Source: a virus
Reading direction: 5' to 3' (one strand)
Virus record (IMG/VR): IMGVR_UViG_3300033156_000140
Location: 1 to 45,336 of that record
DNA: 45,336 bases
Shown here: in pieces, positions 5,964 to 33,145 of the stretch
Layout: every line of letters starts with the position of its first letter
Position numbering within the stretch: the first letter of the stretch is position 1
Notes under the pieces: generated by a model
Database searches by the model: none
Seen by the model: only the letters and a program-made list of their open reading frames with translations
What the model was told of the DNA's origin: nothing
Program-made: the position numbers and the translations under genes

Positions 5964-6128
5964 AGAAATCAAAATCGCGGTAATGCTGCTCAGGATGGCC
6001 CCGACAGCCAGAAGGGTAACCTTTCGGTGAGCGGCAATGTGCTCGTCGAACAGCTTGATGAGCCAGGCCACGTCGGTTCGAGTTTCGATTAGAAGCTCAC
6101 GGTCGGTCTTTGTGTGAATGTCAGTCAT
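5952..6128 (-). CDS. 58-residue membrane protein, XhlA/holin-like
   Basis: A short gene reading leftwards whose ATG overlaps the stop of the large virion protein gene (ATGA at 6125-6128), a sign of coupled translation. The product starts MTDIHTKTDRELLIETRTD, a charged helix followed by VAWLIKLFDEHIAAHRK, and ends in one hydrophobic segment (VTLLAVGAILSSITAILISL). This order, a charged amphipathic N-terminus and a single C-terminal membrane helix, resembles phage haemolysin XhlA-type holin helpers. It is the last gene of the late operon, a usual place for a lysis gene. Its end overlaps the convergent gene 5643-5963 by 12 bp. Confidence 0.72.
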   Translation of the reverse strand: MTDIHTKTDRELLIETRTDVAWLIKLFDEHIAAHRKVTLLAVGAILSSITAILISLVG

Positions 6129-9100
6129 TGTAGTCTCTCCAGGTCACTGATGTCGGCCCGTGCGATGATATGCGTGCGGGCCGCTTTTTTGATTCGGTCG
6201 ATTACCTGCTCCAGAACCAGCACCTTCAACTCCCTGGGTGCAAGCTGGTAAGCCCTAGTCTTGACAATCTTCGGCAAAACCTTCAGGCTGAGGGCCTTGA
6301 CCAGTCTTTGGTAATCCTCATACCGCTCCTGGTTCAGCCGCCACTTCCTGCTCAGCACGTCCCCGATGCCCCCCATCGTAACGCCTAGTGCTTTCATTTC
6401 GTCCCTCACACTGTCGGGGAGGGCGTTGAAGATTCGACGGCCTGCGTCCATTTGCCGCTGGACGATCTGGGCCTGGAAGTCGTAGTTGGTTCGTTCGGCC
6501 TTGGCCATCCGCTCGATCTCGTCGATCTGAGGGAAGTGGGCTCGTAACACCTTCTGAGCCGTTGGGCCGAGGTCTTTCCACGGAGCCCCGAATACCTGCT
6601 GGGCGTAATGGTTTTTCAGGTCCGTCACCTGGCTGTAAATGGTCGGCTCGTAGGTCTGCACCCCAACACCGAGAAATGCGAGGGGGGCGGAGACAACGCC
6701 CGTCTTGATTCCCTGGTAATGGAATGCCTCGTAGACATCCTGGGCAAACAGAGGGGTAAGACGCCGCAGGGCATACTCTACCACCTCGGCTCGGTTCCTG
6801 GGGAGGGGCTCACCCATAAACTGCTGCCCCTGCCAGATGTCGGCAGCCATCCCTGCGAGGGGGCTCAGCTTGGATTGAAGGAACCTCAGCACCACATCCC
6901 GCCGGTCAACCGGGTAGATTTCCCCAGTCTCGGCACTCTTGGTTTCTCCCAGGGCGATCCGAATAGCAGTCCTGACGATGGGAGTATATCCGGCCCAGAA
7001 GTCGAATCGGGTCTTACCGGCACGAATCTTCCCGAAGTCGGCAGACCGGGGGTCCGTCTCCACCTTCAGGCCCGCCAGGGCCACGAGGGCCAACGCCAGC
7101 ATCCCGCCCCCGATAGCGGTGGTGAGCTCCCAGGCGATGATCTTGCTGACCGGCGAGGGCTTTCCGGTAGCGATGTCGATCAGGGAGTTGGCGGCATCCC
7201 CGATCAACTGGAACCGCGAGGCCACCAGGCGGGGGGCGAAGAACCCTACACTGAGAATGTCGCCGTACTTGTCCAGGAACTTTCCGGTACCTCGGCCGGT
7301 GACGTGGTTGACAAACTCCGCCAGCCGCTTGTAATCCTTGGCTGTCTTGCCGGTCCCTTCCCACTGGGCAGCGTAGTAGTCGAATACATCCGCACGGAGC
7401 TTGTTCAGCCCGACGGTGTAGGCCCTCCCCGAAGGCCCGACCAGGGCACCCAGCACCGGAAACTTTTTGGCAAGCTTGGAGATAAACGCTTCCTCAGCAC
7501 GGGTCGCGTCTTCACCGAATTCCGTAATGTCCACCCCGGCCCGCTCGCGGAGAGCGGCGTACTTGCTGGTCCGATAGGAGAGGTCGATCAGCCTGGCCTG
7601 TTCCTCAGACATGAACGCCTTGGCGGACGATCTAAGTGCCCTGAACCACAGCTTGGGGTGTCTGGGCAGAAAGATGATTCCCTGGCGACCAAGGGCCGAT
7701 AAATCGCATGAGGCCAGCAGGGTCCGGGGGACATTGAAGACATCGATGAGCAGCCGAACAGCCCGCTCCTTGAGGGTCTTGGGCACCTTCTCCAGCACGC
7801 CCATCAACTGGGGGCCGAACACCAGGCTAAGCTCCTTCATCTCGCTACGGGTCGGAAGTTGCCCTAAGCGGAGCTTGTCCAGGGCCTCGGAGGCGTGCAT
7901 CTTCTGGAACAGCAGGAGGTCGGATTCTAGAATCCTGGACTTCAGGGCCTTCCAATCCTCCACTGACATCTGGTCTTCCGCGAACGGCTCGAACGTGGCG
8001 GTGGGATACTCTCCCTTCAGGGCTTGCTTGGCGAATGCCACAGCCTCGTCGGGGTCTTCCAGGGCCTCAAGCCGGGTCTCTGCCTCGGACGCACGCTTGG
8101 CCCGCTCCTCAGTCACCTCGGCCTCGGTAGCTGTCCTGATCCCTTCGGCAGGGATATTCTGAACCAGGGAGACAAACTTATCAGCAGGGTCAGCCTCTTG
8201 CACCTCAGGCACTTCTGCTTCCTGGGGAACCGGAGACACCTCGTCGCCCGCAAGGATAGCATCACTCGGCAAGGGCTGCTCGATTTCCTCATCCACCTGG
8301 GCAATTTCCTGCTCAGTGGTCGGGGCAGTCTCCTGAGTGGTGATCTGCTCCAGCGGGGTCGGAGGGGGCTCAATCCCCCGGCCAGTGCCCTGTTCGCCTT
8401 CGAAGGCTCCCCGTACTCCACCTACCAGGCCACCGGCACCGCCCATAGCGGCACCGACAATCCCGCCACCCAGGGCTTCCATACCCCGGCGATGCAGGAA
8501 TCCTGTCAGACCACCCTTGATCTTCTGCTTGCGAAACACCGCAGGAACGATCTCGGCAGTGGTCCCCTGAAGGGCCTCCTCAAGGGCTTCCTCAAACGAG
8601 GTCTTCACGATGTCGGAGGTGATCTTCTTGCCTGACTCCAGCACCTTCATCCAGGCCCGGTTCCGGGCGTTGTGTACCAGGGCACGGCCGATAGTGGGGC
8701 CGGACTTCATTCTGCCCAGGACCTTGCCAACGTTGGACAACTCGATCAGGGCATTGACACCCCCCACGATGTAAGCCTCGGTAGCCGCTTCTTCCGGGGT
8801 GGCCCCGGTAGCGATAGCATCATCGTATGCACTCTGCCCCTCGACGGCGAAGGTAAGGGCGGCCGCAGGCCCAATCCCGCCGGTAGCCGCAGCCCCCAGC
8901 GTGGCCCCCACGTAGGGAGCGGCCTCACCCAGCACGGATGCCACGAACGCACCGGCGGTCTGCTGCATGTCCGGCTGAATCTCCGGAGCTTGTCCGGCGA
9001 GCCTGGCAGCCTCACTCAGCCGCCCTGCATGCTTGGCAATCCATAGCATGGGGTTCTTCTCACCGGCCACCTTTTTCGCTACCCAAAGGGGGGTCATGGG

Positions 9101-9295
9101 GAGGGGATGCTCAATCAGCGTCTTTGCCATCCCCGCAGTCTTCTCCACGATATTGTAGAATCCCCGCTCCAGGGCATCCGGCAGTTCTTCCCAGAACCCC
9201 TTAGGCACGGCATCCACCGACTCGATCCCACTGAACAGGGATTCCCGCTTGGCGGTGTCTGCCTTGGCACTGGAAATGTCAGCAAAGAGTCCCAT
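6125..9295 (-). CDS. Large internal virion (ejection-type) protein
   Basis: 1056 residues, the largest protein of the genome. The ATG at 9295 is used because GGGAG lies just before it; a TTG further out would fall on that site. The N-terminal third holds Ala/Gly-rich hydrophobic stretches (around residues 125-150 and 275-295), followed by a Pro/Glu/Gln-rich linker at about 310-375 and a long helical, basic C-terminal half. The segment SVGFFAPRLVASRFQ is a mark I associate with large phage virion proteins thought to be carried in the capsid and injected with DNA. Together with the neighbouring coiled-coil protein it probably forms the ejection machinery of a short-tailed phage. No lysozyme domain was seen. 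Confidence 0.7.
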   Translation of the reverse strand: MGLFADISSAKADTAKRESLFSGIESVDAVPKGFWEELPDALERGFYNIVEKTAGMAKTLIEHPLPMTPLWVAKKVAGEKNPMLWIAKHAGRLSEAARLAGQAPEIQPDMQQTAGAFVASVLGEAAPYVGATLGAAATGGIGPAAALTFAVEGQSAYDDAIATGATPEEAATEAYIVGGVNALIELSNVGKVLGRMKSGPTIGRALVHNARNRAWMKVLESGKKITSDIVKTSFEEALEEALQGTTAEIVPAVFRKQKIKGGLTGFLHRRGMEALGGGIVGAAMGGAGGLVGGVRGAFEGEQGTGRGIEPPPTPLEQITTQETAPTTEQEIAQVDEEIEQPLPSDAILAGDEVSPVPQEAEVPEVQEADPADKFVSLVQNIPAEGIRTATEAEVTEERAKRASEAETRLEALEDPDEAVAFAKQALKGEYPTATFEPFAEDQMSVEDWKALKSRILESDLLLFQKMHASEALDKLRLGQLPTRSEMKELSLVFGPQLMGVLEKVPKTLKERAVRLLIDVFNVPRTLLASCDLSALGRQGIIFLPRHPKLWFRALRSSAKAFMSEEQARLIDLSYRTSKYAALRERAGVDITEFGEDATRAEEAFISKLAKKFPVLGALVGPSGRAYTVGLNKLRADVFDYYAAQWEGTGKTAKDYKRLAEFVNHVTGRGTGKFLDKYGDILSVGFFAPRLVASRFQLIGDAANSLIDIATGKPSPVSKIIAWELTTAIGGGMLALALVALAGLKVETDPRSADFGKIRAGKTRFDFWAGYTPIVRTAIRIALGETKSAETGEIYPVDRRDVVLRFLQSKLSPLAGMAADIWQGQQFMGEPLPRNRAEVVEYALRRLTPLFAQDVYEAFHYQGIKTGVVSAPLAFLGVGVQTYEPTIYSQVTDLKNHYAQQVFGAPWKDLGPTAQKVLRAHFPQIDEIERMAKAERTNYDFQAQIVQRQMDAGRRIFNALPDSVRDEMKALGVTMGGIGDVLSRKWRLNQERYEDYQRLVKALSLKVLPKIVKTRAYQLAPRELKVLVLEQVIDRIKKAARTHIIARADISDLERLQ

Positions 9296-9457
9296 AAACT
9301 CTCCCAAAATCAGTTTCGTTCAGAAGGCCCCCAGGAGGCGTCAGAATCGACGAACGTCCCGGGCCCCCATAATGGTACCTGCCCCCTGAGTTTTTCCACA
9401 GAGGCCCCCACACGGGGCCGTACAGAGATTCTCAGGCAAGCTGGCAGGCCCCTCGGA
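9296..9457. other. Non-coding gap inside the late operon
   Basis: 160 bp between two virion genes, unusual in an operon where most genes touch. It holds a GC hairpin on the minus strand (GGCCCC, five-base loop, GGGGCC at about 9403-9419) without a following T run, and a DnaA-box-like TTTTCCACA at 9392-9400. I see no open frame or promoter of note. Confidence 0.4.
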
Positions 9458-10327: not shown

Positions 10328-12157
10328 TTATTCCCAATTGAGGCCAATGCCGTGCAACTTCAAATCTTTGTTATTGTGTGTGGTAATCTTCCAACGCATA
10401 TCAGTGCCGGAGGGCTGACTGGATACATCGACTGATCCTGACAAGACCCGCTTACCCGGCAGGTACTCCCCGAAGTCTGAGAAAGATATCTCGGACCAGG
10501 TGGTTCCATCGTCTCGTGAGACGTAACCCTTGATGTCGGTATTCAAGGTAACAGAATCTACATCCTCTTCCATAACTGTAAGCCTGACAGTTGTGGGGGC
10601 TGACCGTGCCTCGAACGAATACGAAACCAGAACCATGTTCTGAGTCGTACCGTGAATCTGGAACAGCATGTCCCAACCGGTGTTATCTACCCAGGAGCTT
10701 CCACCATCCGTAGACTTTTTCGAGACGCCTCCATCGTACCCACCGTCAGCATCTCCCTTCCACGTGATGTAATTATTACTTGATTGAGAACCTAGGCTGA
10801 CTACAAGCCAATACGTGCCTGGGTTGAGGGTAAAACTGCTGAAATCACATCGGTTCCAACTCAATTCCACCCAATCCGAAATATTGATTGTCCCCGTTGC
10901 ATTAGCATGGACCAAAGTGCCGGAAGGATTGCCGCCACTATCAGTTTCAATCCTGAAAGTAATATTCCCAGTCGGAGAGCCTATATTCACTCTGGCAAAT
11001 ACAGAAACCCCATCACAGGAAAAACCACTAGATACAGTAAAGCTCTGAGCTTGGATATAAGTGGTTCCATTTACATTACCTACGGGCTTGTGTCCAAAGT
11101 TGCTGCTGCTCAAATGCTCAATCTCTGAATCATTCGGTCGGAAGACTTCGGTGAATGAGCCAAAGACTTTGAACGCCACATCAAAATGCGGATAAGTATC
11201 GAGGTCCCACGACGAACCCCCATCCAAAGTTTGAGCAAGCTGGCCCTTGGGGTATAAGTCCACCGCTGACCGGCCTACAGCATAATAGTTACCATTTGAC
11301 TGGTTGCCCATAGTCACAACCAGCCAATAAGTGTCGGCCTCCAATTCGAATCGGTCAAAGCTTACTTCATTCCAACCACCGACAGTTGGACTTGATACCG
11401 TAGCCGTTGCATTTGCATGAGCCAACGTACCTGTTGGCCCCTTGTCATCCGTTTCAATACGCACAGTAATGTTGCCGGAAGGGGAACCAACAACACTCTT
11501 GATATAAAATGCCGCCCCAGTAATTTTAGTTTTACCATCGAGACCAAATGACTGAGCTGCTCCATATTGATAATTGAGATTGCCGCCGAGTTTCATGCCA
11601 CCGGAATAGTCGGTCTGGGATTCCTCAACGTCGGTCTCCGGATTGTATGTCACCCCAGTACCATACAGATAATGGCTACTGTTGAGTAGATCAACGGCTC
11701 CCGAAGTCTCGAAGGCATCAGTCATACCGTCCACCATGTATTGTGGGGGCTGGTCAAACCAGTCCACAAGGCGGAACGACAGCAATTGCATGTTGATGAT
11801 ATTGATATTGCTGACCGTACCCCCACCACCAGGCAAATTGCTGATCTTTACCTTCTTGTGAGTACCGGCACTGCCGTCGTAGGTCAAGATGTAGTCCTGC
11901 GTCTCCGAGGGTGAGGAATCCTCAGCAAGCCCACTCACATCGGCCTTGATAACATCGCCATCTAACTGCACACCTTCCGACGCAGAGAGGTGGGCCGTGC
12001 CTGCGTAACCCAGCGAAGTCCAGGCCGTAGACCCATCACCAATTTTGAATTTGGTGGTATCCGTCTCGACTCCGACCTCCCCGGCAGCAAGAGTCGGATT
12101 GTTCGAGGTCCAGTTAGCCGCAGTGTCGCGTCGAAGCTGTAACCGCTTGTGTGCCAT
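10328..12157 (-). CDS. Tail fibre protein with Mtd-type N-terminus and two repeated jelly-roll-like domains
   Basis: 609 residues. Residues 1-50 (LQLRRDTAANWTSNNPTL, then GEVGVETDTTKFKIGDGSTAW) match the N-terminal domain of the major tropism determinant type, which attaches fibres to the tail. Residues about 195-335 and 365-510 are two copies of one beta-sandwich-like unit, each running AQSF, then GSPxGNITxRIETD, GTLxHANATxT and ExDTYWLVVxxGxQS or its close variant, and ending DGGSSW. The C-terminus is Ser/Thr-rich. The start overlaps the stop of the previous gene as TAATG. A receptor-binding role is likely. Confidence 0.75.
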   Translation of the reverse strand: MAHKRLQLRRDTAANWTSNNPTLAAGEVGVETDTTKFKIGDGSTAWTSLGYAGTAHLSASEGVQLDGDVIKADVSGLAEDSSPSETQDYILTYDGSAGTHKKVKISNLPGGGGTVSNINIINMQLLSFRLVDWFDQPPQYMVDGMTDAFETSGAVDLLNSSHYLYGTGVTYNPETDVEESQTDYSGGMKLGGNLNYQYGAAQSFGLDGKTKITGAAFYIKSVVGSPSGNITVRIETDDKGPTGTLAHANATATVSSPTVGGWNEVSFDRFELEADTYWLVVTMGNQSNGNYYAVGRSAVDLYPKGQLAQTLDGGSSWDLDTYPHFDVAFKVFGSFTEVFRPNDSEIEHLSSSNFGHKPVGNVNGTTYIQAQSFTVSSGFSCDGVSVFARVNIGSPTGNITFRIETDSGGNPSGTLVHANATGTINISDWVELSWNRCDFSSFTLNPGTYWLVVSLGSQSSNNYITWKGDADGGYDGGVSKKSTDGGSSWVDNTGWDMLFQIHGTTQNMVLVSYSFEARSAPTTVRLTVMEEDVDSVTLNTDIKGYVSRDDGTTWSEISFSDFGEYLPGKRVLSGSVDVSSQPSGTDMRWKITTHNNKDLKLHGIGLNWE

Positions 12158-12528: not shown

Positions 12529-14093
12529 TATACACTACTTCCCAAATCAATAACATTTGTAGAGGTTAGCTGCTTATTAGCATCCGTCATCACAATCTCA
12601 TTCGGCCCCAGCCCCGTAACCGTAACGTCGGAGAATTGCACGTCATCGTCCCGCAGGGCGTACTGAGGGTGGTCATCATCACTCAGCCCGGCCAGGGTCC
12701 CATGGTCGGCAGCCGCCGCCCCGATTGCCATCGGAGCCGTTCGCCAGTCGATATAGTCTTCATCGCCATCGACACTGACAATGCGGGCCTTCCAGGAGTT
12801 GGAATAGGTATTCTTCCCCTGAACAATGATGGTGGCAATCGGCTTCAACTCTTTCGAATTTGTGCCGATCCCGATCAAATTGTCAATCTCAATCGCAGCA
12901 CCAACCCTAGCTTGGTTCAGGTTGGAGTACTCGGACTGCCCCATCATCACGATGGGATCGCCATGCTCTAAGTTGGTAGCGAAAACATGGTACAGGACGA
13001 AGTTTCCGCTGGACATCTCCGTTAGTGTGCCATCGTCGTCCCATACCGGAAGGCCACTGCCGCCCGTCTTGATGAAGCCGCCGGAGATAGTCTCCCACGT
13101 CCAGGTGTTGGTAGATTTCCTGTACCACAACTCGTAATCATCCGTGGAAGACTTCGCGTTGTAAGTGTGCTTGATGTCTTCATCGTAGGCCGACCCAGCC
13201 GTGATGCTGAACTGGGCGTGGGCGTCAAGGCTGCCATCCCCGTCGGCGATAATGTCCCCTACCGCGAGCCCGTCATTGTACCGCAGCCCAATAGTGTTGT
13301 GCAGATACAGGTGCGTTTGCGGAGACATCTGGGCCTCGTGTGTCTCCGACATCAGGGCACCCTTGCTGTTCGTCGCGTCCCAGTAGACATACGCAACCAG
13401 GACCTTATTGACGATCAAGTTGTCGATGTCGCTACTGTTGGGATTGTGCAACTTCGACAGCGTATCACCGTCATAGTAGATCGCCCACAAGCCCTCGGTA
13501 TCGTCGATTTGGATGCTTTCCGGTGACGACTTGGTGTACTCCACACCAGCCTGGCGGTAGGTGTACGATCCGCTAACTGGGCTGATGGTGAAAGTCCTGT
13601 CCGGCGACGAGTCAGACCACGAGATGTCTACCTGAGTCCTATCGTCAAACCCGTTCTGAGCCCATGAATCCAGAAAGTTGGACCAGTCAGTAATGTCACT
13701 CAGCGAAATACTGTTCCCGCCAGACAATACTCCGGAGGCATCATTCTTGACAAAACCCGCAGGAGTAAAGCCGGAAAGAGTCAGGCCGGAGAAGGTGGGG
13801 GAGGCCCCCGTGTGGATGTCCTGAGGGGTGCCGAGCGTAACCGTACCATCCCCATCATCAGATACCGTGACCTGATTCGAGGTGCCGTCGATCCAATCAA
13901 ACAAATCGGTGGACACCAGCTTCTTATCGGCATCGCTGGCAACCAGACGATCAGCAGTCAGGCTTGTGAGCGTCAAGCTGTTGAATATCGGCGTCGCATT
14001 ATTGCCCAGCCGACGATTCAACTTCTGAAGCCACCGCTTTACAGCCTGTGGATCATGGGCCTTAGGGGCTGGTCCGAGATTCGGATACGACAT
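12528..14093 (-). CDS. Tail fibre / receptor-binding protein
   Basis: 521 residues with repeating short beta segments typical of trimeric fibres: SLTLTSLTADRLVASDADKKLVS at about 38 is echoed at the C-terminus by VTVTGLGPNEIVMTDANKQLTS. The motif LSDDDHPQYALRDD near residue 470 is a common fibre element. The N-terminus (PKAHDPQAVKRWLQKLNRRL) is basic and helical and may anchor to the tail. It is the first of three adjacent fibre-type genes. Confidence 0.72.
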   Translation of the reverse strand: MSYPNLGPAPKAHDPQAVKRWLQKLNRRLGNNATPIFNSLTLTSLTADRLVASDADKKLVSTDLFDWIDGTSNQVTVSDDGDGTVTLGTPQDIHTGASPTFSGLTLSGFTPAGFVKNDASGVLSGGNSISLSDITDWSNFLDSWAQNGFDDRTQVDISWSDSSPDRTFTISPVSGSYTYRQAGVEYTKSSPESIQIDDTEGLWAIYYDGDTLSKLHNPNSSDIDNLIVNKVLVAYVYWDATNSKGALMSETHEAQMSPQTHLYLHNTIGLRYNDGLAVGDIIADGDGSLDAHAQFSITAGSAYDEDIKHTYNAKSSTDDYELWYRKSTNTWTWETISGGFIKTGGSGLPVWDDDGTLTEMSSGNFVLYHVFATNLEHGDPIVMMGQSEYSNLNQARVGAAIEIDNLIGIGTNSKELKPIATIIVQGKNTYSNSWKARIVSVDGDEDYIDWRTAPMAIGAAAADHGTLAGLSDDDHPQYALRDDDVQFSDVTVTGLGPNEIVMTDANKQLTSTNVIDLGSSV

Positions 14094-25646: not shown

Positions 25647-27401
25647 CTATTGATTTACACTGCTCTGTCCGCCAGCCCTGGCTTGCTGTTGAATCAAATT
25701 TTGGTTTCGACTTTCCGCCCCCAACACGCCTGTGCGGCCATCCTGAATCGCTCCGTTTTTACCCTTCACCATGCCAAGTTGTGGTTGGTAAGGATTCAGA
25801 TTCACGTTGCTCGGTACCGCGGTCCGGAACCAATCATTGATCCCACGAAGCTGTAGGTATTTCGCCAACTGCTTCGTCGCCTCTGGGATGTTCAGTTGCA
25901 TCCCCTGCTGGGCCGCAATCTGGGCCGTTGGCAGCACCCACTGGGTCAGCAGCGTGATTAGCCGCTGGTACTCCATGTTCGGATTGAGCCGCTGCATCGA
26001 GTATGGCTCAATTTCGAAGTTGTAATCCCAGAAGTCCCCCTCTTGTCCCGCACGGTCGAAGACAACCTCGACAGAGCCATATCCCTCAATTCGCTTTAGT
26101 TGAGGGACGTGAATCAGTGGGTCGGTCCAAAGGTACCAGGCAATCTTCCGGGCAATCGAGGTCGTAAAAGTATACACCTGCTCGACCATGTCATCGACAG
26201 ACTTGCTGGCATTCGCCATCAACATCTGCTCCTGGCCGAGCGTCTGGGCTTGCACGTTTCGTCCGCCCATCGTGTAGAGGTTCTGCCCCTGGATCGAATA
26301 CTGACTCTCCAGGTATTGAATCCAGCTATAGGCATTAGCGTCAATGCCGGGAAACTCAAACACCCTTACCCCATCCCGGTGCTGCACCTTCACGGCCTCT
26401 CGATCCGCAGCGAGAACAAGGCGGTTAGCATCCTCGTGAGCCTCAGCCTCATAGGCCAGGACAGCCTTTTGTGCCTCGGCCTGCTTCCGAATCTTGTTGA
26501 CGATCACGTTGATCGCGGTATCCATGTCGAGCCACGACCACACCGGGGGTAGTGGGATGGGGGTCCCTGGGATTTCTTTGTAGTACAGCTTGTCGAACGG
26601 GCCACCTTCTGGGCCGTCCCAGTCCCACGAGTTGTAAATCTTGCCACGCTCGTCGTGGGGATTGATAGTGATAACAACTCGCTCATCAGGGAGCCAAATG
26701 TCAGCCAACTCGGTCCACTCTTTGAGCGTGTTATACTGCTCGTTGTGGAGTCCCGGCTTCACAATCGCGTCGGTCGAAACATCCTCACCATATAGGTGAA
26801 ACTGAGATTTGATGCGATCCGCGTGCTTGGGAAACATGTCCCTTGCCACCCCCAGTGGAATGCGGTAAACATGCCCCTCAAGCTCAAAGCTCTCGAACGT
26901 CTTGGCTGACGGATCGCCAATGTAATCTTCCAGATCAATCGTGTCGGCGTACACCTGCCCGACGTCGTGGAGGTATCCAAACACCTCGACCTGCCACTCC
27001 TTGGCAATCCCGGTCTTCACGATGCCCATTCCTAGCATCGAATCCCTGACCGCCGGTCGAAGTGTGTTTTTCGCAAACTTGATTTCCTTGAGCAGGTGAT
27101 TGAAGGCCAACTCGGTCGTCAGAGCGAACGGACGGAGCCTCAAGTTGTCCGTTGTCACCAACATCTTCGGATTGGACATCACCAGATACGGGATCAGAAT
27201 GCCGAGGCCCCGGTCGATAAGGTTGATCGGGTGTGGGATTCCGTTGTTATCTGGTGCTGTATAACCAGCAATCCAAGCATTCAGCATCGTCGTGCGATGC
27301 TTCAGTGGGGCCTCCATAAGCTTTTTCCACACTTGGATAGCCCGCAGGATACGCTGCCCGAAGTTTAGTCGGACGTTCCGTTCGTCTTTTATCTTTCCCA
27401 T
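25647..27401 (-). CDS. Portal protein
   Basis: 584 residues, the usual size of a portal. The N-terminal half is mixed alpha/beta with a region of long helices (TAINVIVNKIRKQAEAQKAV, about 293-315) that would build the stem, and the end is Gln/Asn-rich (NLIQQQARAGGQSSVNQ). Position directly after the large terminase and before head assembly genes, as in most tailed phages, supports the call. Its ATG overlaps the terminase stop by one base (TGATG). Confidence 0.78.
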   Translation of the reverse strand: MGKIKDERNVRLNFGQRILRAIQVWKKLMEAPLKHRTTMLNAWIAGYTAPDNNGIPHPINLIDRGLGILIPYLVMSNPKMLVTTDNLRLRPFALTTELAFNHLLKEIKFAKNTLRPAVRDSMLGMGIVKTGIAKEWQVEVFGYLHDVGQVYADTIDLEDYIGDPSAKTFESFELEGHVYRIPLGVARDMFPKHADRIKSQFHLYGEDVSTDAIVKPGLHNEQYNTLKEWTELADIWLPDERVVITINPHDERGKIYNSWDWDGPEGGPFDKLYYKEIPGTPIPLPPVWSWLDMDTAINVIVNKIRKQAEAQKAVLAYEAEAHEDANRLVLAADREAVKVQHRDGVRVFEFPGIDANAYSWIQYLESQYSIQGQNLYTMGGRNVQAQTLGQEQMLMANASKSVDDMVEQVYTFTTSIARKIAWYLWTDPLIHVPQLKRIEGYGSVEVVFDRAGQEGDFWDYNFEIEPYSMQRLNPNMEYQRLITLLTQWVLPTAQIAAQQGMQLNIPEATKQLAKYLQLRGINDWFRTAVPSNVNLNPYQPQLGMVKGKNGAIQDGRTGVLGAESRNQNLIQQQARAGGQSSVNQ

Positions 27402-29398
27402 CAGTACAGAAACCTTTGATTGAGTCTGTCGGTGTAGGCTTTACGCCTACGTTGCATCAAGCGTGAACCTACGGACTGCTCCGGAAACTCCACTGTTTTC
27501 TTCGCCTCTGGGCTAATCTGAAGGTTGGCCGCCTCGATGAATAACATGTCATTGATTACCCGGTCACCGTGCGACTGTCGTGCCCCGCCGCTCTCGGTAA
27601 TGCAGTGGGCCGGTCCAACGGAGCCATCAGGAAACTCGATATACGTCTCATATTCCCGGATAAGATTCGAATCATGGACGACCAAGTACTGCTGACCTTT
27701 ATTTCCAGCAACCCCCGCAGCGAGGGCAGAATCCAACTCGATCAGCAGGGCTCGCTTTTTCTTAGCCGTCGAGTACCAGCCCCAACGCTTCTTCCTGGGC
27801 GATCCGATCTTTGTCCGGTCCCGATCCTCATACACCGGACCGACGGGGTGAGACATCAGCCTCTTGCCGTACACCTGACCTGGGCCGGATTCTTCCCAAA
27901 TCAAGTAGGGGGAGTTTATTCCACCAACCCACAACCACACCCCTACAGTCAAGTCAGCAAAGCTCTCCGGCGACAGGTGGGGGGTTGCATACGTTCCGAC
28001 CCGCTCATGCGTAGTACAATCATAGATGCCGAGGGTCGAATTACTGCTCCCGGTGCCCCGCGAAATATCGGCCGAGATGATGTAGTTTCTGTCCTGTCGG
28101 GGACGTCCATCTGTGAGTGAGCCCCACCACTGAAGTCTTCCCTTCCCCGTGACCACGAAGCGGGCCGACTTGATCTTGCCATCCTGGTCCTGGTCGAGCA
28201 CAATATCCCCCACTACGTCCGCAGGGCGACAGTGCTCCATCTCCATCCGGCGGAGTGTGGCAAGCGAGAAGAACGTCTCGCCCGCCCCAATCGGACGGCG
28301 GTCAATGTTCTGGGCGATGTCCCGTGGGCTACGTGCAGCAGCGATTTTATCGTACCAGACGCTACGCCATCCGCCTTCGTTGCTGTCTCCCCCGTCAGCT
28401 ACGAAGGCGATGCCAGCCTTTTCCAGCTTGTCCTGAATCGGTTCGACCTTTATGGGTTCGTCCGCCTCGATGTCGTTGAACACCTCCGGACACTTCGCAC
28501 GGTAGTAGGCGATGTCCCGCACGGCAACGACACCAGGCTCAGGGCTCCGATATAGGCCGACGTTTTCCTCTGGGTTGTCTTCCCACGCGAGAGTCAGGAT
28601 TTCCTTCTGCCCAAACTGCCCAGTCAAGAGTTGGTTGTAGGGGTGAGCAACGCCGTAGAAGTGTGTCGAGCAATAAATCACGCAGTCCGACACGTCGCTG
28701 ACCGACTCGATGATCGACCTCGCCATGTTGTAGTCCACTCGACCAATCTCGTCGATGAAGACAATGCTGTGCCGCGAACCGGCCCCAAAATTGTCGTTGG
28801 TCGATTCACCAGCAATCACCGCCCCATTGTCAAGATTCTGGAGCAGAAGGTTTGTCTTGCTGAACGAGTTGGGCTTCGGCTTCAGCCACTCCGGACAGAA
28901 GTACAGCGTGTACAACACCTTATGGAACAGGCAGGATGGGTTACCAGAAATCTTCCCGCCGGACCACTGGGTCTTATCGTCTACCAGGTTTTCCTTACGA
29001 CTGCCCATGAGGGCCTGAAACTCCGGGGATAGGAGCCACTGCATGGCGAGGAATTTAGTGATTAGCTCCGACGCCCCTTCCTTACGGGTCTTGTCGAGAA
29101 CCACCTCTTTCCCGTTCTTGTAGCAGTAGTCGAAGCCCTCGACTGCCTTGATCTGGGCCGGTCGCAGGATAAAGGGCTGATTTCTGTGGCCCGCTGGCTT
29201 CTGCGGGTTGAAGGTCCACGCTATTGTGTTGTAAAAGAGCGGTGGGTATTCCAGCAGCATTTCCTTGTAAGCCCGCTGAAAACCCTTGTCAGACAGCAGG
29301 AGCCGGTGCAGAGTCTTGCGAAACTCAAGGTTCGCCAAGGGCTCCGTCGGAACGGCCCGGAAGAAATCCCTTGGATCATCCAGTTTCAACTGGTTCAT
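27401..29398 (-). CDS. terL: Terminase large subunit
   Basis: 665 residues with both terminase domains. The ATPase part has a deviant Walker A (KTRKEGAS, about 103-110) and a Walker B (HSIVFIDEIGRV). The nuclease part shows the acidic residues of the RNase H-like fold: ISADISRGTGSSNSTLGIYD, then IWEESGPG and HGDRVINDMLF. It packages DNA through the portal. The C-terminus ends basic (QRRRKAYTDRLNQRFLY). The gene overlaps the small subunit by 23 bases. Confidence 0.88.
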   Translation of the reverse strand: MNQLKLDDPRDFFRAVPTEPLANLEFRKTLHRLLLSDKGFQRAYKEMLLEYPPLFYNTIAWTFNPQKPAGHRNQPFILRPAQIKAVEGFDYCYKNGKEVVLDKTRKEGASELITKFLAMQWLLSPEFQALMGSRKENLVDDKTQWSGGKISGNPSCLFHKVLYTLYFCPEWLKPKPNSFSKTNLLLQNLDNGAVIAGESTNDNFGAGSRHSIVFIDEIGRVDYNMARSIIESVSDVSDCVIYCSTHFYGVAHPYNQLLTGQFGQKEILTLAWEDNPEENVGLYRSPEPGVVAVRDIAYYRAKCPEVFNDIEADEPIKVEPIQDKLEKAGIAFVADGGDSNEGGWRSVWYDKIAAARSPRDIAQNIDRRPIGAGETFFSLATLRRMEMEHCRPADVVGDIVLDQDQDGKIKSARFVVTGKGRLQWWGSLTDGRPRQDRNYIISADISRGTGSSNSTLGIYDCTTHERVGTYATPHLSPESFADLTVGVWLWVGGINSPYLIWEESGPGQVYGKRLMSHPVGPVYEDRDRTKIGSPRKKRWGWYSTAKKKRALLIELDSALAAGVAGNKGQQYLVVHDSNLIREYETYIEFPDGSVGPAHCITESGGARQSHGDRVINDMLFIEAANLQISPEAKKTVEFPEQSVGSRLMQRRRKAYTDRLNQRFLY

Positions 29399-29987
29399 CC
29401 ACCACCTCGGCTGACACTGGCTTCGACCGCTTTAGCTCCTGTTGCAACGCTTCTAACAACCTCGTCTTCTCATTCTCGCCGCCCTGAAACTCCAGGGGTT
29501 CCGAAGGAGACTCTACCTGACGGATATTCTTCAGCGGCTCGTCGCTGTTCCTGGTGAAGTTTACCAGCAGGAAGATCAGCATGGCCGTATTCGGCGGACG
29601 GTGCTTCACGTGCACCTTTTTCTTCGCAATGCGTTCCTTGCCCGTCTCAGGGTCGGTGACTACCGTGTATTCAATCTCCTGATAATCATACCCGCAGGCA
29701 AGCTGGATAGCAGCCCCCTTGAGGTATCGGATGGCAGCCTCTTTCCCCTTGTCCAGGGCCAGGGCAAACTCCGGATTGTTTTTCTTCCACCGCTGGATCG
29801 TTGTTGGTTTGACACCTAACATTGATTCAACGGCGGTGATCGGAAACCCCGCAGCGATGAGGGAGGCCGTCAGCTTGGCAATATCGACATGAAACCTCGC
29901 CTGCCCGCACTTCCGACGGCTCCAGATGTTCGTCGGCACGCGGTCAAACTTGACCCGAATCTCATCGCCTTTTCGCGGGCGTCCCAT
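29376..29987 (-). CDS. terS: Terminase small subunit
   Basis: 203 residues starting at MGRPRKGDEIRVKF, with the stop of the previous gene overlapping the ATG by one base (TAATG). Residues about 46-75 (SLIAAGFPITAVESMLGVKP, then TTIQRWKKNNPEF) form a helix-turn-helix suited to DNA recognition. The middle is helical, as in oligomerising small terminases, and the C-terminal part is acidic. Just upstream of the large subunit. Confidence 0.75.
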   Translation of the reverse strand: MGRPRKGDEIRVKFDRVPTNIWSRRKCGQARFHVDIAKLTASLIAAGFPITAVESMLGVKPTTIQRWKKNNPEFALALDKGKEAAIRYLKGAAIQLACGYDYQEIEYTVVTDPETGKERIAKKKVHVKHRPPNTAMLIFLLVNFTRNSDEPLKNIRQVESPSEPLEFQGGENEKTRLLEALQQELKRSKPVSAEVVDEPVETG

Positions 29988-30238
29988 TACCGCCCCTCCG
30001 CAGGCGACACATGATCTCGGCATCGCCTTTGCACTGTGTTCTTAGTACCTGCTTCGGGGGCGGGGGACATAAACATGCGTGTTTTCTCGATGTACTCAGC
30101 CTGGTCCGCAGGGACAGTGGCACGGCCCTCGCGTTCTCGGCACTCGTCACACCAGGCATAAAGCCCCCAGGAATCTTCCCTCTGCTGGAACGATTCCGTC
30201 GGCTTCCACTCCCAGCATCGTCGGCATAGCTTCTTCAT
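29987..30238 (-). CDS. Small zinc-finger protein at the head of the late operon
   Basis: 83 residues. MKKLCRRCWEWKPTESFQQ followed by GLYAWCDECREREGR gives the C-x2-C ... C-x2-C arrangement common in small phage zinc-finger proteins related to HNH enzymes, but no His-rich catalytic part follows. Start at 30238 has GAGGTG at the correct distance; an ATG at 30268 has none. It is the first gene of the late operon, in front of the terminase genes. Possibly a packaging or regulatory cofactor. Confidence 0.65.
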   Translation of the reverse strand: MKKLCRRCWEWKPTESFQQREDSWGLYAWCDECREREGRATVPADQAEYIEKTRMFMSPAPEAGTKNTVQRRCRDHVSPAEGR

Positions 30239-30275
30239 AGAGCACCTCAAATCTAGTCCCCCCTTCATATAGTAA

Positions 30276-30320
30276 GGCCAATTTTTTAGTTTTCGTTACA
30301 ATCGTTACAATCGTTACAAC
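30276..30320 (+). repeat. Composite repeat, copy 1: GGCCAATTTTTTA plus three 9-bp units
   Basis: GGCCAATTTTTTA at 30276-30288 is followed after five bases by three perfect-phase 9-mers, CGTTACAAT, CGTTACAAT and CGTTACAAC (30294-30320). The same block with the same five-base gap recurs at 30575-30619. The organisation suggests a protein-binding array. Confidence 0.85.
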
Positions 30321-30459
30321 CTATACCGGGCCGTGAATCCTCAAGGTCCGAGAATCTTTATCTCTCTTATATTATATTATATTCTATACTCCTATATCTC
30401 CTCGCTCCCTGCTCGTCGAGTGCTCGCTTTCGCTCGCCCAACCCATCCATCGCTTTCTT

Positions 30460-30547
30460 GGGAGATTCCATTCTCCCTGCGGGACTTCCTGTCCCTGATT
30501 CGGTATCCATCCTGGATTGGCTTTTCTATCCCCCCGGCATCCCTGCC
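30460..30547 (-). promoter_or_regulatory. Four hairpins with GGA in the loop (CsrA/RsmA-like sites)
   Basis: On the minus strand the order is GGCA-GGGA-TGCC (30547-30536), ATCC-AGGAT-GGAT (30517-30505), GGGAC-AGGAA-GTCCC (30495-30481) and GGGAGA-ATGGAA-TCTCCC (30477-30460). Each loop shows GGA; the last is the hexaloop A-N-GGA-N known for RsmE/CsrA binding. The leader of the late operon would carry them if transcription starts upstream. The direction is inferred from the loop sequence and not from a promoter. Confidence 0.5.
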
Positions 30548-30574
30548 TTCCCCCCATGCTTCTCTACTATGTAG

Positions 30575-30619
30575 GGCCAATTTTTTATCCATTACTATAA
30601 TCGTTATAATCGTTATACT
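30575..30619 (+). repeat. Composite repeat, copy 2
   Basis: GGCCAATTTTTTA at 30575-30587 is identical to copy 1, then a five-base gap, then TACTATAAT (degenerate), CGTTATAAT and CGTTATACT (30593-30619). It sits 299 bp to the right of copy 1. Confidence 0.82.
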
Positions 30620-30759
30620 TTACCACCCCCTTGTTTTTAGCCTGAAAACGCCGATTTTAGGCCCTATTCTGGATGATTCCTAAAACAAACTAGTTCTATA
30701 TCGTGAAGCACTTGAAAGTTTTTTCTGAGCTTTTTTGCCCTTCAGCCTAGTGAGTTCAG

Positions 30760-30786
30760 GTTATACAGACTGTAACGGTTATACAG
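30760..30786. repeat. Three-unit 9-bp cluster with inverted middle unit
   Basis: GTTATACAG, ACTGTAACG and GTTATACAG follow each other without gaps. The middle unit read on the other strand is CGTTACAGT, one base off the consensus. It is 120 bp before the first gene of the polymerase operon, where a regulator of that operon could bind. Confidence 0.6.
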
Positions 30787-30905
30787 ATATTCGAAAAATT
30801 GTTGGATTATACGGAGAGATACATTGAAATCTGTGGGAACCTTTTGTCGGATTGATTGTCTAATGGGGCAGTCGAACAACATTCACTTTTTTGGAAGGGC
30901 ACGAC

Positions 30906-31229
30906 ATGAAGATTGATGGGGTTGAAGTTGACCTGAACGAGCAGGAAATTGAGTTGCTGATGCTGGTGCACCCGCTGTTTGACGGACTTAGCTTCAACAA
31001 GGCGGCACAGCAGCTGGGCTGGTCTTGGCCGAGTGTGAAGCGTGTCTGGGATGGTATGGTGAAGAAGTACCCGATGCTAGCCGTGACCAAGGAGCAGTGG
31101 GACAATCCTTACGAGGTTGATCGCAGAGCTATTGACAAGGCTAAGCGGTTTTCCGCTATGGACGATCTCGCAGCCAAAGATTCGGACGATAATCGGTTCT
31201 TTGGCGAGTCGGTGCGAATGATGTTCTGA
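30906..31229 (+). CDS. Helix-turn-helix DNA-binding protein
   Basis: 107 residues. The segment LNEQEIELLMLVHPLFDGLS followed by FNKAAQQLGWSWPSVKRVWD is a helix-turn-helix of the sigma-region-4 / winged type, and the C-terminal part is charged. Start at 30906 has GGAAGGG upstream. It is the first gene after the control region full of 9-bp arrays and is therefore the best candidate for the protein that binds them. It could control polymerase-operon or late transcription. Confidence 0.7.
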   Translation: MKIDGVEVDLNEQEIELLMLVHPLFDGLSFNKAAQQLGWSWPSVKRVWDGMVKKYPMLAVTKEQWDNPYEVDRRAIDKAKRFSAMDDLAAKDSDDNRFFGESVRMMF

Positions 31230-31252
31230 TTGTTTGGTTTGTAGGGATTATA

Positions 31253-33145
31253 ATGAATACTAAAAAATTGGGCCTACTTAGTGACCGGGGACTAGACATG
31301 GACGAGAAGCATCTATTCAGCGAATACAGTACTAGGACGTGGGAAATCACAATCGAGCCCTGGCTGCGTGGCCTCGGCCACACGGTGGCCGTGGACACAG
31401 AAACAACCGGTTTGAATTACTATCGCCTGGAGATGTTGGGCATTTCCTTCTGCGATGGAAAGCGGGCCTGCTACCTCCACCTCCCACATGCCAGTGGACT
31501 GAGAGCCAGGGTCATCGACTTCCTGCGGGAAATGTTCGAGAGTCACTTCAAGGCCCTGGTGATGCACAACGCAAACTTCGACTTGAAGGTGCTCCACAAG
31601 GTGGGCATCAGAAAAGTCCCTCGCAAGCTGTTCGACACCAAGGTGGCGGCCCACCTGTTAGACGAGGAAAGCCCGACCGGACTGAAACACCTTGCCCAGG
31701 TTCACCTTGGGGCCAAGACGACAAGCTACAAGGAAGCCTCGGCAAGCGGGACAGGATCGTACAAGTTTCACGAGTACGCCCTGAACGACGCAATCTACAC
31801 CTGGAAGCTTCACAAGCTGTTCAATCCGCAGTTGTATGCCCAGAAGCTCGACCGGCTGTTTTTCGATATTGAGATGCCATTCCAGTTTGTTCTGATGCAT
31901 CTGCACATCAACGGGGTACAATTCGACCTGGATGAATTGCGGCGGATCGAAACCTGGGTACTGGAGAAGCGGGACCAGGTGCTCATGGAGCTACACGAGC
32001 AGGCCGGTAAGCACTATCACAAGCAGAAGCTCATCGGCGGTGGGGAGGAATTGGTGACGAGCGTCAACTTCAACAGCCCACAGCAGTTGATCCCACTGAT
32101 CGAGTCTGCCATTGGGAAAAAGCTGACTGACCAGACAGAGGGGGGCCAGAAAAGCACATCCAGTACAGTTTTGCAGAAATACAAGGATAGCCCGTTCGTC
32201 CACAACCTCTTGATTTACCGAGTGTTACAGAAGGCGATCAGTGCCTTCATCGAGCCGGTATACGAGTACATCGACTCGGACGGTCGCATCCGAGCAAGCT
32301 TCAACAACTGCGGTTGCGTCACCGGCCGCCTCTCATGCAGCAGCCCGAATCTTCAACAACTACCGAATCCTGACCCGCTCTGCCCGATTGAGTACCGCAA
32401 GTGCATCGTCGCTCCCAAGGGCAAGAAACTGGTGGCGGCGGACTATTCCGGCCAGGAAATGCGTGTGCTTGCCCACATCTCCAATGACCCCACGCTCCTG
32501 CGGGTTTTCCGGGAAGACTTGGACCCCCACCTGATGACGGCCAAGATGCTGTTCAACCTTCCGATTCCGGACGAGTGCCTGAAGACTTCGCATCCCGATT
32601 ACCCGAAGTACAAGGAAACCTACAAGGAAGAACGGCATATCGGCAAGAACGGAATCAACTTCCCCATCATTTATGGGACCACAGCAAGTGGAATCTCCAA
32701 GAACCTGAACATCTCGGAAGCCAAGGCCCAGGAGATGATCGACTCCTTCATGCGGGCGTATCCCGGCGTGGCGAAGGCCATCAAGCGGTGTGCGGCCGAG
32801 GTGAAGAACCGGAAATGGGTAGCGACTGAGCTTGGGCGTCGGCGTCGCCTCGACCCAAGGCTCAGCAAATCCTACCGGCAGGCGTTCAATTTCAAGATTC
32901 AATCGCTGTGCTCAGACATCCTGCGGGCTGCGATGGTCCACGTCCAGCGGTACGCCGACTGCCACCCGGAAATGGACATGAAGATTGTAATGACAGTCCA
33001 TGACGAGATTCTGTTCGAGGTCAAGGAAGAATACGCCGAGCGGGCCGGAAAGGAAGTCTCTGAAATCATGCGGGACGTGGCTGCACTTCGGGTGCCTCTT
33101 GAGGTCAGCTATTCCTGCGGGTACACCTACCTGGAGTGCAAGTAA
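31253..33145 (+). CDS. polA: Family A DNA polymerase with 3'-5' exonuclease
   Basis: 630 residues. The exonuclease domain shows VDTETTGL (Asp48, Glu50), MHNANFDLK and YALNDAIY, so all three Exo motifs are intact. The polymerase domain has motif A VAADYSGQE (Asp397), motif B from Arg461 to Gly475 with Phe at the site equal to E. coli Phe762, and motif C TVHDE (Asp584). There is no 5'-3' exonuclease domain, which is usual for phage enzymes. In motif B the lysine lies five rather than four residues before the phenylalanine. It replicates the phage genome with the helicase and primase on the other operon. A second possible ATG with GGGG ahead is at 31298. Confidence 0.92.
   Translation: MNTKKLGLLSDRGLDMDEKHLFSEYSTRTWEITIEPWLRGLGHTVAVDTETTGLNYYRLEMLGISFCDGKRACYLHLPHASGLRARVIDFLREMFESHFKALVMHNANFDLKVLHKVGIRKVPRKLFDTKVAAHLLDEESPTGLKHLAQVHLGAKTTSYKEASASGTGSYKFHEYALNDAIYTWKLHKLFNPQLYAQKLDRLFFDIEMPFQFVLMHLHINGVQFDLDELRRIETWVLEKRDQVLMELHEQAGKHYHKQKLIGGGEELVTSVNFNSPQQLIPLIESAIGKKLTDQTEGGQKSTSSTVLQKYKDSPFVHNLLIYRVLQKAISAFIEPVYEYIDSDGRIRASFNNCGCVTGRLSCSSPNLQQLPNPDPLCPIEYRKCIVAPKGKKLVAADYSGQEMRVLAHISNDPTLLRVFREDLDPHLMTAKMLFNLPIPDECLKTSHPDYPKYKETYKEERHIGKNGINFPIIYGTTASGISKNLNISEAKAQEMIDSFMRAYPGVAKAIKRCAAEVKNRKWVATELGRRRRLDPRLSKSYRQAFNFKIQSLCSDILRAAMVHVQRYADCHPEMDMKIVMTVHDEILFEVKEEYAERAGKEVSEIMRDVAALRVPLEVSYSCGYTYLECK

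Follow-up and report, generated by a model that had tools for sequence, protein, structure and literature searches.

A candidate CsrB-like decoy RNA for CsrA/RsmA between the divergent early and late genes of uncultivated tailed phages

What is an array of four small hairpins, each exposing GGA in its loop, doing in the gap between the early and the late genes of an uncultivated phage? The locus lies in a viral record (IMG/VR record IMGVR_UViG_3300033156_000140) that we analysed over its whole length of 45,336 nucleotides, hereafter the window. Its layout is divergent, with minus-strand late genes up to 30268 and plus-strand early genes from 30891, and the hairpin array sits in the intergenic region that separates them (Table 1). 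An initial annotation had proposed that the minus-strand hairpins form a CsrA/RsmA-binding leader on the late operon, used by the phage either as a timing signal or as a sponge for the host regulator. We reasoned that the array instead belongs to a discrete phage-encoded small RNA, built like CsrB/RsmZ, that would sequester CsrA/RsmA, and we give this reading a probability of roughly 0.6.

A DNA-level search of an annotated phage collection found nothing similar to the window, and its large terminase subunit (TerL) reaches about 29% identity at best with named phages, in alignments that cover under half of the protein. A host search with a TerL profile, covering around 600 genomes from two phyla, gave only two matches to the TerL domain, both partial (E = 5e-36 and 7e-34). 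Both were in the first phylum, the second gave none, and no host was assigned. The endonuclease VII-like gene that opens the late block likely starts at the ATG at 30238, the start used by its ortholog in the relative L054. On the early side, no family match was found for the product of the first gene, and the longest DNA polymerase reading frame begins at 31253 (plus strand), within a promoter-like element; the start given in Table 1 fits better.

Table 1 Features of the window and second copies of the element in two relatives
Feature	Position	Strand	Description
Window	1–45,336		Whole virus record
Terminase large subunit (TerL)	27401–29398	−	Block 27401..30023
Terminase small subunit	29376–30023	−	Block 27401..30023
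First late gene, endonuclease VII-like	29987..30268	−	PHROG match
Promoter-like copy 2	30268..30322	−	Before late genes; (TTGTAACGA)x3 then AAAAAATTGGCCTTACTATATGAAGGGG
Putative small RNA	30330..30567	−	Extent predicted from relatives with the element between two promoters
Element 3′ part	30385..30450	−	GATGGATGGG, GCGAGCGA-type repeats, further unpaired GGA (GCAGGGAGCGAGGAG); full-length alignment to the L014 element
Hairpin 4	30460..30477	−	GGGAGA-ATGGAA-TCTCCC; A-N-GGA-N hexaloop
Hairpin 3	30481..30495	−	GGGAC-AGGAA-GTCCC; core ACAGGAAGT
Hairpin 2	30505..30517	−	ATCC-AGGAT-GGAT; core CAGGATG, as in CsrB repeats
Hairpin 1	30536..30547	−	GGCA-GGGA-TGCC; core CAGGGATG fits the SELEX core CARGGAUG
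Promoter-like copy 1	30568..30618	−	Upstream of array; 9-mer TATAACGAT repeats then AAAAAATTGGCCCTACATAG
First early gene, small predicted HTH-like protein	30891..31229	+	Kept in relatives (sequence comparison)
Promoter-like copy 3, partial	31241–31291	+	Before DNA polymerase
Family A DNA polymerase	31298..33145	+	Third promoter-like copy (AAAAAATTGGGCCTAC element) in front
Second copy, L014 phage	11995–12040	−	R2 E = 8e-11
Second copy, L167 phage record (G620)	13498–13541	−	R2 E = 1e-18

Hairpins and candidate binding sites in the window

The four minus-strand GGA-loop hairpins at 30460–30547 are exactly as the initial annotation described them, and the distance it gave to the first late gene (220–310 bases) comes to 222–309 bases when measured to the likely ATG. 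Chance in a GA-rich stretch is one account of them, and purines do abound on this strand (of the 88 bases, 32 are G and 27 are A). We counted stems of four or more pairs that do not overlap and that close a 3–8-nt loop containing GGA, and observed four within the 88 bases; 3,000 dinucleotide shuffles gave three in three cases and four in none, so that the comparison with shuffled sequence of equal composition, which the initial annotation had named as a possible refutation, speaks against chance. Stems of at least five pairs numbered three, against a shuffle maximum of two. When both strands of the window were scanned in 90-base windows, three or more stems appeared only at the array and at one coding site near 27006. 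The shuffle test, together with the recurrence of the element in relatives described below, refutes a chance origin, to which we give almost no weight.

The minus-strand fold of 30238–30600, also singled out in advance as a check, was better than that of shuffled sequences, but only moderately (z = −2.66; z = −1.9 for 96 nt). Because overall stability is only mildly unusual, the signal resides locally, in the hairpins and their loop sequence. Two of these can be read in more than one way: the GGGA loop of hairpin 1 is also compatible with a GNRA tetraloop, and hairpin 2 can be drawn with a stem of 5 bp capped by a GGA triloop. The hairpin strand also has runs of at least six G that flank hairpin 1 or are close to it (window 30522–30560, minus; L054 5003–5028, plus; and the L206 intergenic region), where a G-quadruplex is possible.

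A near-identical contig (L003/L053, IMGVR_UViG_3300033150_001215) shows zero substitutions against window positions 28600–31300 and lacks stretches of 68, 50, 12 and 57 bases; the 12-bp deletion takes out the 5′ arm of hairpin 3, and its TerL is without 19 codons, a Walker-B-like stretch included. We set this contig aside because its TerL loses that stretch and it differs by large deletions only, with no substitutions; the deletions are probably an assembly or data artefact.

The loops resemble published binding sites. The CsrA SELEX consensus is RUACARGGAUGU, in which ACA and GGA are invariant; of 55 selected RNAs, 51 place GGA in a hairpin loop (PMC7652899). For Rsm the published motif is CANGGANG (PMC6849547), and the core CANGGAUG agrees with both. 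Rfam returned zero matches at gathering cut-offs. When the window site was scanned permissively against 4,227 Rfam families, CsrB/RsmB (RF00018) had the lowest E-value, on the same strand (E = 0.045), with a score of 14.8 bits, far under the gathering cut-off of 71; given that shortfall, we claim that the element would work like CsrB/RsmB, not that it is a member of the family. Among four relatives scanned in the same permissive way, a CsrB match appeared in L054 only, and it was weak. TwoAYGGAY and other Rfam GGA-loop motifs have GGA-type terminal loops in common with the array, and they were matched neither at gathering cut-offs nor by the permissive scan.

Conservation and orientation of the element in relatives

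Through DNA polymerase and TerL alignments we gathered 35 distinct phage loci (L numbers) with the same divergent arrangement. One further candidate, L271, found by DNA pattern, proved to be a chance match within a TerL gene. The closest separate relative, L054 (53% TerL identity), carries TTGG-ATGGAA-CCAA, GGTC-GGGAT-GACC and GTCA-TGGA-TGAC in the same place and on the same strand. Its conserved block GTGGGGGGAGCAGGGATGCGGGGGGA matches hairpin 1 and the flanking G-runs of the window. The first two of these stems are the counterparts of hairpins 2 and 4, respectively, with stems replaced and GGA loops retained; the counterpart of hairpin 3 keeps a stem and has lost GGA, its loop reading GCAA. 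Hairpin 1 is conserved in L054 (GCAGGGATGC), L014 (GGCAAGGATGCC), L015, L017 and L162–L186.

Across the intergenic regions of the 35 loci, CA(N)GGATG occurs 42 times against 5.5 expected (maximum 13 in 200 shuffles), and twelve altered versions of the motif occur 2–12 times each. Examples include GTACAGGATGTAC (L016 and L019), CTCAAGCAGGATGCTTGAT (L171), GATAGCAGGATGCTGTC (L168) and GTCGAGCATGGATGCGAG (L165 and L166), and L205 has two 7–8-bp hairpins, CTGCCCA-GGGA-TGGGCAG and AAGCCCA-GGA-TGGGCTT (fold z = −2.95). Within the intergenic element, the motif sites of any one locus share one strand. Outside the core itself, the arms flanking 38 cores can still pair: they form 67 pairs where re-pairing gave a mean of 29, and none of 20,000 re-pairings reached that number. 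The exact figure is to be read loosely, since the test counts related phages as independent. Such sites are absent from several of the relatives, such as L005, L169, L170 and L178, and global folding energy is unexceptional in several family members.

An alignment of seven L162–L186 relatives (A8) refines this picture. Hairpin 1 is nearly invariant in it, and two pairs of hairpin 2 have changed on both sides in a compensatory manner, with a covariation score of 0.259 against 0.114 that was reached by 4 of 500 shuffles; slid structures scored much lower. Invariant columns spell GAGCA.GGA.GCGA and CA.GGA.G, and the variable columns are the N positions of the published Rsm motif. The agreement of the core with the consensus, and its enrichment and strand polarity in relatives, support the idea of the initial annotation that the array holds candidate CsrA/RsmA-type sites.

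The same columns bear on whether the loops could serve another partner, in a structured phage RNA that binds, for example, the ribosome or a phage protein. GGA is purine-rich and Shine–Dalgarno-like, and some family hairpins carry CGA in place of GGA (L013 and L162), both of which would suit such a role. Against it, the conserved core CA.GGA.G is that of the CsrA/Rsm consensus rather than AGGAGG, down to the coincidence of its variable positions with the N positions of that consensus, and we consider a different partner quite unlikely.

Loop size and orientation weigh on a further account, in which the hairpins act as DNA. N4 virion RNA polymerase promoters are hairpins of 5–7 bp with a GGA-type triloop, and GGA triloop forms exist in L171, L168 and L205. 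Moreover, a 1,060-aa late protein of the window (6125–9307, minus) weakly matches the amino-terminal part of a PHROG named virion RNA polymerase; its one distant relative is in a spring-water phage (MW202497). However, no polymerase domain was found in this protein, which matched no Pfam family or solved structure (PDB), and eight phage records yielded no match to PF00940 or phrog_2206 (single-subunit RNA polymerase) in a search in which no positive control rang either. Loop size across the family ranges from 3 to 6, and the orientation of the hairpins relative to the genes is inconstant. We consider promoters of an N4-type polymerase very improbable, and likewise any other signal at the DNA level, for instance an origin or a packaging site.

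That inconstancy is informative in itself. GGA is on the late strand in the window, L054, L205 and L206; in 14 other phages it is on the early strand. The L014 element lies on the opposite strand from that of the window relative to the same flanking genes, facing the early genes, and is nevertheless homologous to it: the two align over their whole length with a Smith–Waterman score of 76 (maximum 50 in 500 shuffles; no antisense signal) and share the blocks GGCAxGGATGCCG...GAAAAGC...GGATGGA...GGCGAGCG...CGACGAGCAGGAGCGAGGAG.TATAGG. A covariance model, R2, built from seven early-oriented relatives only, finds the late-oriented element of L054 (E = 8e-5) and those of L014 and L017 (both about 0.003), and it reveals second copies in the L014 and L167 phages (Table 1). 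Since R2 also picks up repetitive coding sequence in L239 (E = 0.001), values near 1e-3 are not trusted alone. The window's own element gave no match to R2, and its link to the family consequently rests on the pairwise alignments to L014 and L054. In the TerL tree, the window and L054 form a fully supported pair that neighbours the early-oriented L014/L015/L162–L186 group, and late orientation requires three changes. By these comparisons, the element behaves as a unit that has switched orientation with respect to the flanking genes, and this speaks against a fixed role as a cis-acting leader.

Transcription signals around the element

Four early-oriented relatives (L016, L017, L019 and L171) carry an exact sigma-70 promoter, TTGACA-N17/18-TATAAT, on the same strand as the hairpins and 20–40 nt ahead of the first one; a separate strong early-gene promoter, TTGACT-N17-TATAAT, follows around 240 nt further on. 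T-rich stretches precede this early-gene promoter, with a strong terminator-like fold in L171 (z = −4.0), and in L205 a strong terminator-like fold follows the array (z = −3.3). In L013, L016, L017, L019 and L171, a conserved motif of the CTGCGAA type, which reads CCGCGAA in L171, lies just upstream of the early TTGACT-TATAAT with T-rich sequence after it; it may be a terminator or an operator.

In the window, no sigma-70 consensus or terminator was recognised before or after the array. The array is bracketed by two promoter-like copies that are 78% identical over 45 nt. These and the partial third copy share AAAAAATTGG(G)CCYTAC, in the stretches 30571–30618, 30272–30322 and 31241–31291, and the two minus-strand copies come after 9-mer TTRTAACGA repeats; repeats related to these 9-mers precede the late genes in L013–L019. 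A phage regulator or a replication protein may bind at the copies. The arrangement suggests that the window phage would express its RNA from the same class of promoter as its late genes. With the hairpin strand being the late-coding strand and no terminator found, this RNA could also read through into them.

These signals bear on the choice between a discrete RNA and a cis-acting leader, in which the hairpins would be the 5′ untranslated part of the late mRNA (window) or the early mRNA (others), and bound CsrA would delay or protect translation or alter transcript stability. Such a leader would fit the window itself, where the array is on the coding strand 222 nt upstream of the first late start, with no clear terminator between it and the late genes. 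By contrast, L014 and 13 other relatives have the homologous element turned towards the early genes, and in L016, L017, L019 and L171 a strong promoter past the element serves the early gene separately. In the window, a second promoter-like copy separates the array from the late genes. Nor does any site overlap a ribosome-binding site. As a general explanation, the late-operon leader of the initial annotation is therefore not supported, given the early-facing element of 14 relatives and its own sigma-70 promoter in four; of the two uses suggested there, the sponge is favoured and the timing leader is not. We judge cis control unlikely, and sequestration would be the more plausible function.

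Relation to known systems and meaning

A CsrA/RsmA-sequestering RNA would have counterparts in bacteria. CsrB and CsrC of E. coli and RsmX, RsmY and RsmZ of Pseudomonas present, like the phage element, several GGA-loop hairpins with cores CAGGAUG and CANGGAUG and further GGA between the hairpins, and they have their own promoter, as the phage element does in four relatives. The second copies in the L014 and L167 phages recall the CsrB/CsrC pair. Unlike CsrB/RsmZ, the candidate is phage-encoded, is placed between early and late operons and offers around 2–5 sites, whereas CsrB carries roughly 18–22. It also differs from members of these families in scoring below every Rfam cut-off and in the absence of a GacA/UvrY box (TGTAAG-N6-CTTACA) near the array when up to three mismatches were allowed, a box known from gammaproteobacterial members only.

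In open-access full-text literature we found phage-borne csrA genes and no phage-borne CsrA-binding or decoy RNA. The csrA/rsmA genes of phages and plasmids, with csrA in around 1% of phages, share the theme of mobile elements interfering with the host Csr system (PMC7366521); those genes encode protein, whereas the phages studied here offer a candidate RNA only, with no csrA gene found in 12 phage records. The phage-derived sponges AgvB and SprY are alike in acting as RNA by titration; they titrate another RNA, and the candidate described here would titrate a protein (PMC12197685). That review of phage RNA sponges mentions neither Csr nor Rsm. Lowered csrA expression altered E. coli fitness under several phages (PMC7553319).

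We propose that a non-coding RNA gene, located between the divergent early and late operons in a family of uncultivated tailed phages, would be transcribed in quantity during infection into an RNA that displays several CA(N)GGAUG hairpin sites fitting the CsrA/RsmA recognition consensus. This decoy would bind dimers of the host CsrA/RsmA, and their capture would relieve or redirect post-transcriptional control in the way that bacterial CsrB/C and RsmX/Y/Z do, presumably to the advantage of the phage. It is an even bet whether the broader picture holds, in which a widespread tailed-phage family encodes a CsrB-like decoy for host CsrA/RsmA from a gene that has been reoriented between the early and late sides and duplicated while keeping its protein-binding hairpins.

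In many bacteria, carbon metabolism, motility and biofilm formation are under the control of CsrA/RsmA. If the proposal is true, titration of this regulator by a phage RNA would be a compact means of rewiring the host without a protein, and the known phage RNA sponges would be joined by a decoy directed at a protein. A family defined by bioinformatics would then become open to direct testing, by gel shift and with heterologous reporters in E. coli.
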